NCBI GenBank assembly: GCA_016182545.1
Contig: JACPGG010000091.1
Coordinates: 1-35,086 of the forward strand
Length of the DNA: 35,086 nt
Origin: Ignavibacteriales bacterium
Lineage (GTDB): Bacteria; Bacteroidota; Ignavibacteria; UBA10030; UBA8401
Direction: 5' to 3'
Every line of letters begins with the position of its first letter. The stretch's first letter is position 1. Of the stretch, positions 7,419 to 9,431 are shown in pieces. Under the pieces are notes generated by a model. That model had not been told where the DNA came from, did not search any database, and saw only the letters and a program-made list of their open reading frames with translations. A program made the position numbers and the translations under genes.

Positions 7419-7880
7419 GTGGCAGAAAACAAACCGAAGAAATCCAACGGCGACTATACCGCTGAAGACATTACCGTACTGAAAGGACTGGAAGCGGTCC
7501 GCAGGCGTCCCGCGATGTACATCGGCGACGTCAGCACGCGCGGGCTTCACCATCTTGTCTACGAAGTCGTCGACAATTCCATTGACGAAGCCCTCGCAGG
7601 ATATTGCAAAAATATTTTGGTGAAGATCAATAAAGACGGCAGCGTTTCTGTTCTCGATGATGGCAGAGGTATTCCGACAGGCATTCATAAAGAAGAAAAA
7701 CGCTCCGCTCTCGAAGTCGTGCTGACCGTGCTCCATGCCGGCCGAAAATTCGACAAGAACACGTACAAAGTATCCGGCGGTCTGCATGGCGTGGGTGTGT
7801 CGGTTGTAAACGCACTCAGCGAATGGCTGGAAGTGACCGTGAGGTACGACGGGAAAGTCTGGTACCAGAAATATAAATAG
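7419..7880 (+). CDS. gyrB: DNA gyrase subunit B, N-terminal part ending at an in-frame TAG
   Basis: [68 protein letters not shown] ATPase motifs; TAG at 7878-7880. Confidence 0.93.
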
Positions 7881-7916
7881 GGCGACCCCGGCGCACCGGT
7901 CAAAGTCATCGGCACG

Positions 7917-9431
7917 ATGACAAAAACGGATAAGACCGGCACCTTAGTGACGTTTATGCCCGACGGTTCGATCTTCAAGAACCGCACATTCAAATTCGAC
8001 ACTCTTGCCGAGCGATTGCGCGAGTTGGCGTTTTTGAATCCCGATGTGACTCTTGAGATAACCGACCTTCGCACCAAACAGGAACAGACGGAAAAATTCC
8101 ACTACAAAGGCGGACTGATCGAGTTTGTAAAATATATCGATGCAACTCGTCCGTCGATCATGAAGAAAGTGTTCTACGCAAAGGGTGACGGAAAAGATGA
8201 GAACGGACGTGCAGTGGAAGTTGAAGCATCGTTCCAATACAACGATCAGTACTCGGAGAATGTCTTTTCCTACGTCAACAACATCAATACCCACGAAGGG
8301 GGCACACATCTCGTCGGTTTCAGAACCGCGATGACCCGCTCGCTCAATACTTTTGCTTCGAAGAACAATCTCATCAAAGACGACAAGATACAACTGACCG
8401 GCGAAGATTTTAAAGAGGGACTTACCGCAATTATCAGTGTGAAGGTGCCGGAGCCGCAGTTTGAAGGGCAAACGAAAACAAAACTCGGCAACAGCGAGAT
8501 CAAAAGTATCGTGGAATCGGTCATTGGTCCGGCTCTTTCAGACTGGCTTGACGACAATTCGCCGGACGCAAAGCGGGTCATCGATAAAAGTTTGCGAGCG
8601 GCGGAAGCACGCGAAGCGGCGCGGAAAGCGCGCGATATCGCACGGCGCAAGAATGCCATGGACGGCGCCGGTCTTCCCGGCAAACTTGCGGACTGTTCTA
8701 TCAACGATCCGGAACATTGCGAACTCTATATCGTTGAAGGCGATTCCGCAGGCGGTAGCGCAAAACAGGGACGCGACAGGCGATTCCAGGCGATCCTGCC
8801 GATGAAAGGGAAGATACTGAATGTTGAAAAAGCACGACTGCATAAGATCCTTGAGAACGAAGAGATCAGGAATATTTTCACAGCGATCGGCGCTGGCGTC
8901 GGAGAAGAGTTCGATCCGAAAAAATTACGATATAACAAGATCATCCTTATGTGCGATGCGGACGTCGACGGATCGCACATTCGAACGCTACTCTTAACAC
9001 TGTTCTTCCGGTACATGAAACCGTTGATCGAACTCGGCCACGTGCACATCGCTCAGCCGCCTCTTTATAAATTGAAAAAAGGAAAATCTGAATTGTATGC
9101 ATACGATGACGACGAACGCGACGAAATTCTCAAACGTTTAAAAGGCGAAAAAGCGGATAAAAAATCCGAAGAAAACGAAACGGTACCGGAAGAGGGAGCC
9201 GCAATAAAAGGAGGCGTCGTAATCTCGCGCTTCAAGGGTCTGGGCGAAATGAATCCGGAACAGCTCTGGTCGACCACAATGAATCCGGAAACGCGTACGA
9301 TTCTTCAAGTGGCAATAGAAAATGCGGCTGATGCCGACCGCACGTTTTCAATATTAATGGGGGACGAGGTGGAACCGCGGCGTGCATTCATCGAAAAGAA
9401 TGCAAAATACGTCCGCAACCTCGATGTCTAA
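7917..9431 (+). CDS. gyrB: DNA gyrase subunit B, remainder in the same frame after the TAG
   Basis: [47 protein letters not shown] (Toprim), [27 protein letters not shown]. The frame is continuous from 7881 ([12 protein letters not shown]...) in phase with 7419; 7917 is only the first downstream ATG. Confidence 0.93.

Follow-up and report, generated by a model that had tools for sequence, protein, structure and literature searches.

An in-frame TAG codon in the single gyrB gene of an Ignavibacteriales draft genome is most likely a base-level fault of the assembly

The B subunit of bacterial DNA gyrase comprises four domains in a set order (PF02518, PF00204, PF01751 and PF00986), and its gene is found near gyrA in the dnaA-dnaN-recF-dciA-gyrB locus. 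For a gyrB gene that carries a stop codon, the closest described situations are the misreading of UAG by tRNA-Gln, reported for E. coli (cited in PMC5289835), and the base errors of draft metagenome-assembled genomes; our search for literature on stops in draft bins yielded nothing directly usable. The gene considered here lies on contig JACPGG010000091.1 of an Ignavibacteriales bacterium (assembly GCA_016182545.1; 3.54 Mb in 205 contigs, completeness 87.85%, contamination 0.24%), and the whole contig of 35,086 nucleotides is referred to below as the window. The order of genes in the locus is dnaA, dnaN, recF, dciA, gyrB, a small glycosyltransferase-like frame and gyrA. Like ordinary bacterial gyrB, the gene is thus situated near gyrA and, when read through its TAG, encodes a protein matching HATPase_c, DNA_gyraseB, Toprim and DNA_gyraseB_C, all four in order, with 90-91% identity to the nearest relatives; unlike it, the gene possesses a TAG at codon 154 and the substitutions Gly109Arg and Val158Gly. 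Over the C-terminal part, the closest named record belongs to a metagenome bin labelled 'Bacteroidetes bacterium' (83% identity); Ignavibacteria-type bins come next. The 205-aa frame between gyrB and gyrA (9432-10049) has a weak glycosyltransferase-2 match. The gyrB-gyrA slot varies, as the two genes are separated by fewer than 50 bases in two relatives (G001 and G003) and by gaps of about 1 kb in two others (G011 and G009).

The gyrB gene occupies positions 7419-9431 of the forward strand, from a GTG start at 7419 to a TAA at 9429-9431, and is not one uninterrupted frame: codon 154 (7878-7880), in phase with the GTG and preceded by 153 sense codons, is TAG. The 5' part (7419-7880) contains the N, G1 (DDGRGIP) and G2 (GGLHGVG) motifs of the GHKL ATPase, while the remainder (7881-9431), which stays open in the same frame up to the TAA, encodes the rest of the ATPase domain, the transducer, Toprim and the C-terminal domain, and there is no indel on either side of codon 154. 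These features had been described in an earlier note made from the letters alone, and the sequence confirms them; the placement of the TAG between the G2 and TGT motifs and the alignment with E. coli GyrB, where codon 154 stands opposite the His of YEHGVP, were also correct. The codon falls in a variable, Gly/Pro-containing stretch outside the motifs. The description of gyrB as otherwise intact is valid for the open frame and the domains, but not for residues 109 and 158, the changes at which are likewise private to this copy. A portion of the assembly amounting to about 1.26 Mb was searched for stops flanked by same-frame coding signal, and the signal around the gyrB TAG proved to be the strongest among all stops in this sample; as it is so strong on both sides, the gene shows no decay.

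A gyrB match was obtained in 58 related genomes, and in all of them the gene is free of stops (two further relatives lack a match, and a few show pieces of the gene at the ends of contigs); no split gyrB was found in the relatives compared. In the 29 relatives that were compared closely, codon 154 is a sense codon in every case, encoding Lys in 21, Arg in five and Gln in three; the two carriers of CAG among the nearest relatives belong to a sister genus. The conserved stop that programmed readthrough would entail is therefore absent at this codon in all 29 genomes. Only six residues of the gene, the TAG being one of them, occur in none of these relatives.

The assembly (88% complete) contains one gene with a DNA_gyraseB domain, gyrB itself, and a gene of the GyrB/ParE type is likewise single in each relative whose gyrB is complete. 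The suggestion of the earlier note that a second gyrB or parE might compensate thus finds no candidate: outside whatever the unassembled 12% may hold, no ParE or further GyrB is available as a substitute. Being the only gyrase B-type gene in the genome, gyrB should be needed. The possibility that the sampled strain has undergone a real recent inactivation of gyrB and obtains its gyrase from an unassembled gyrB or parE is nevertheless to be considered, as gyrB alone contains several damaging-looking changes and the assembly is incomplete. We regard it as quite improbable, given that neither this assembly nor any relative with a complete gyrB has more than one gene of this type, that there is no frameshift or decay, and that the 504-codon remainder is well conserved.

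As for the missense changes, codon 109 (7743-7745, forward strand) is CGA (Arg), whereas Gly (GGN) is found in 29 of 29 relatives and E. coli GyrB also has Gly at this position; as a result, the ATP-lid motif LHAGGKF reads LHAGRKF. Codon 158 (7890-7892, forward strand), four codons downstream of the TAG, is GGC (Gly) in place of the Val (GTN) of 28 of the 29 relatives. Both are one-base, radical changes and count among the six residues without a counterpart in the 29 relatives. The gyrA gene, an open frame at 10071-12740 on the forward strand, also differs from the relatives at columns that are otherwise invariant; among these changes are Leu279His (10905-10907) and, five codons further on, Lys284Arg (the pair spans 10905-10922), both at columns without variation in the 29 relatives. 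Private changes at invariant columns have a mean BLOSUM62 score of -0.57 in the window against 1.04 in the closest relatives (one-sided p = 0.037; p = 0.065 when the window is compared with all relatives). This harshness is suggestive, though not strong, and may point to base-level faults. The position of Gly109Arg in the ATP lid argues against a working GyrB of the sequence as written, whether split or produced by readthrough. A split protein would consist of a 153-residue N-terminal fragment and a 504-residue C-terminal fragment, the latter restarting at the first ATG downstream of the TAG (7917, forward strand), and the two would have to reassemble. Such an arrangement could profit from an ATG only 12 codons past the stop and from a break that hits no motif in its variable Gly/Pro-containing stretch; the break, however, falls within the GHKL domain and separates G2 from the TGT motif, the shorter fragment is the one that carries Gly109Arg, none of the relatives has a split gene, and the codons between the stop and the ATG, needless in a split gene, still look coding. 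Of all the readings weighed here, we consider this one the least probable.

The stop in gyrB is not the only one of its kind. In the search of the 1.26-Mb sample, gyrB came out on top, followed by a CNNM/CorC gene; the latter has an in-frame TAG (L200:5050-5052, G000 contig C31) at a codon for Gln in the seven nearest homologues compared. A RibD_C gene has an in-frame TAA (L157:1966-1968, G000 contig C6, reverse strand) at a position occupied by Ser, Ile or Thr in nearer homologues. Twenty read-through candidates were scanned with Pfam, and only in these two was the stop clearly spanned by one family or orthologue; most of the others turned out to be two neighbouring genes in the same frame and were rejected. 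Stops are also listed for some RibD_C paralogues of related genomes. We also applied a dynamic-programming gene finder allowing for frameshifts and in-frame stops; it was insensitive, missing even gyrB because a restart at the ATG at 7917 is cheap, and its frameshift counts were discarded. Considering that about 4% of random substitutions in gyrB yield a stop, three stops in the sample correspond to about 7e-5 wrong or minority bases per site, an estimate that holds if all three are errors and if most such stops were recovered by the search. At this rate about one such stop would be expected among a few hundred essential genes, so that no special cause has to be invoked for its falling in one essential gene or another. 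The replacement of different residues by different stops fits random substitution.

Another reading is that the TAG is real and that a near-cognate tRNA, such as tRNA-Gln CUG or tRNA-Lys, or else a suppressor tRNA missing from the assembly, reads through it often enough for full-length GyrB to be made. This would resemble the E. coli case cited in PMC5289835, in which tRNA-Gln is reported to misread UAG: two genes have UAG at a Gln-type codon (in two of the three interrupted genes, the TAG stands at Gln or Lys/Gln sites of the relatives), and the near-cognates tRNA-Gln(CTG) and tRNA-Lys(CTT) are present, which makes a low level of readthrough conceivable. The earlier note had proposed looking for a tRNA with a CUA anticodon; none is present among the 36 tRNAs found, a set which is incomplete (Trp, Tyr and Ile(GAT) are not listed) and to that extent leaves room for a suppressor. 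Unlike the E. coli case as it is cited there, however, the genome combines an RF1 gene, intact at 525.7 bits, and the routine use of TAG to end genes (54 of 348 long frames) with a third interrupted gene, RibD_C, in which TAA replaces a non-Gln residue. The match to PylS scored 24.6 bits, below the cut-off of 178, and the RNA downstream of the TAG is no more structured than shuffled sequences (z = -0.31). Readthrough would also leave Gly109Arg and Val158Gly unexplained, and we find it improbable. Wholesale recoding of TAG, in which RF1 would be lost or altered and TAG rare as a gene end, is rejected on the same two counts, in line with the earlier note, one of whose examples of a genuine stop (18019-18021) ends an ABC-transporter gene of the window exactly where its homologue in G011 ends. 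A milder variant, in which the lineage decodes a fraction of UAG as Gln or Lys in spite of RF1, by a near-cognate or unassembled tRNA, so that the essential gyrB and a CNNM/CorC gene can carry UAG, seems very improbable to us. In sum, recoding and suppression have no positive support.

We suppose that the TAG is a base-level fault of the draft assembly, i.e. a consensus error or a minority or dead allele from a strain mixture, and put the probability of this at about 0.8. It is attributed to such a fault because gyrB is the single gene of its kind, the relatives lack the stop, and further nonsense codons and radical missense outliers occur in the same assembly. Of the options listed in the earlier note, sequencing, consensus or strain-mixture error would thus be the favoured one, judging indirectly from the gyrB and gyrA outliers and the other nonsense codons; recoding is unlikely, and neither a second gyrB or parE nor a CUA tRNA was found. 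The event could have been a wrong consensus base in a short-read, metagenome-type contig or, alternatively, the entry of a minority or dead allele of a mixed strain population into the consensus; either would have turned CAG, AAG or a similar sense codon at 7878-7880 into TAG and split the frame on paper, while the living population would carry an ordinary sense codon and make full-length GyrB. We infer, rather than observe, the sense codon in the majority strain or reads. Short N runs in other contigs of the assembly resemble those of scaffolded short-read bins, and lone base changes, free of indels, spread over unrelated genes and producing mixed stops in N-gapped scaffolds, look much like the errors of draft metagenome-assembled genomes.

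Several observations are less favourable to a base-level fault. The confinement of three of the four notable events in gyrB to 50 codons is only mildly unusual and statistically weak (p about 0.055); dnaA, in the same window, has no comparable radical outlier; none of 39 matches to ABC-transporter genes contains a stop; and the contamination is low (0.24%). A genuine nonsense mutation that arose recently in the cells sampled would give an identical picture, yet we consider such a lesion less likely than consensus error or strain mixture. Most likely, then, the TAG represents no new way of making gyrase and no real feature. Were the stop genuine, the cell would have to rely, for an essential gene present in one copy, on readthrough or a split gyrase, a surprising situation. 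As matters stand, the case serves as a caution: before biological claims are built on isolated stops in conserved genes of draft metagenome bins, such stops should be compared with outliers nearby and with further broken genes from the bin in question.

One more feature met in the course of the analysis concerns a different gene: a single 591-codon frame (L221:14611-16386) contains a radical-SAM region of the CofH/MqnC type together with a VitK2_biosynth (menaquinone) domain and is a possible fused gene of the futalosine pathway. It is followed by a TIR-domain frame.
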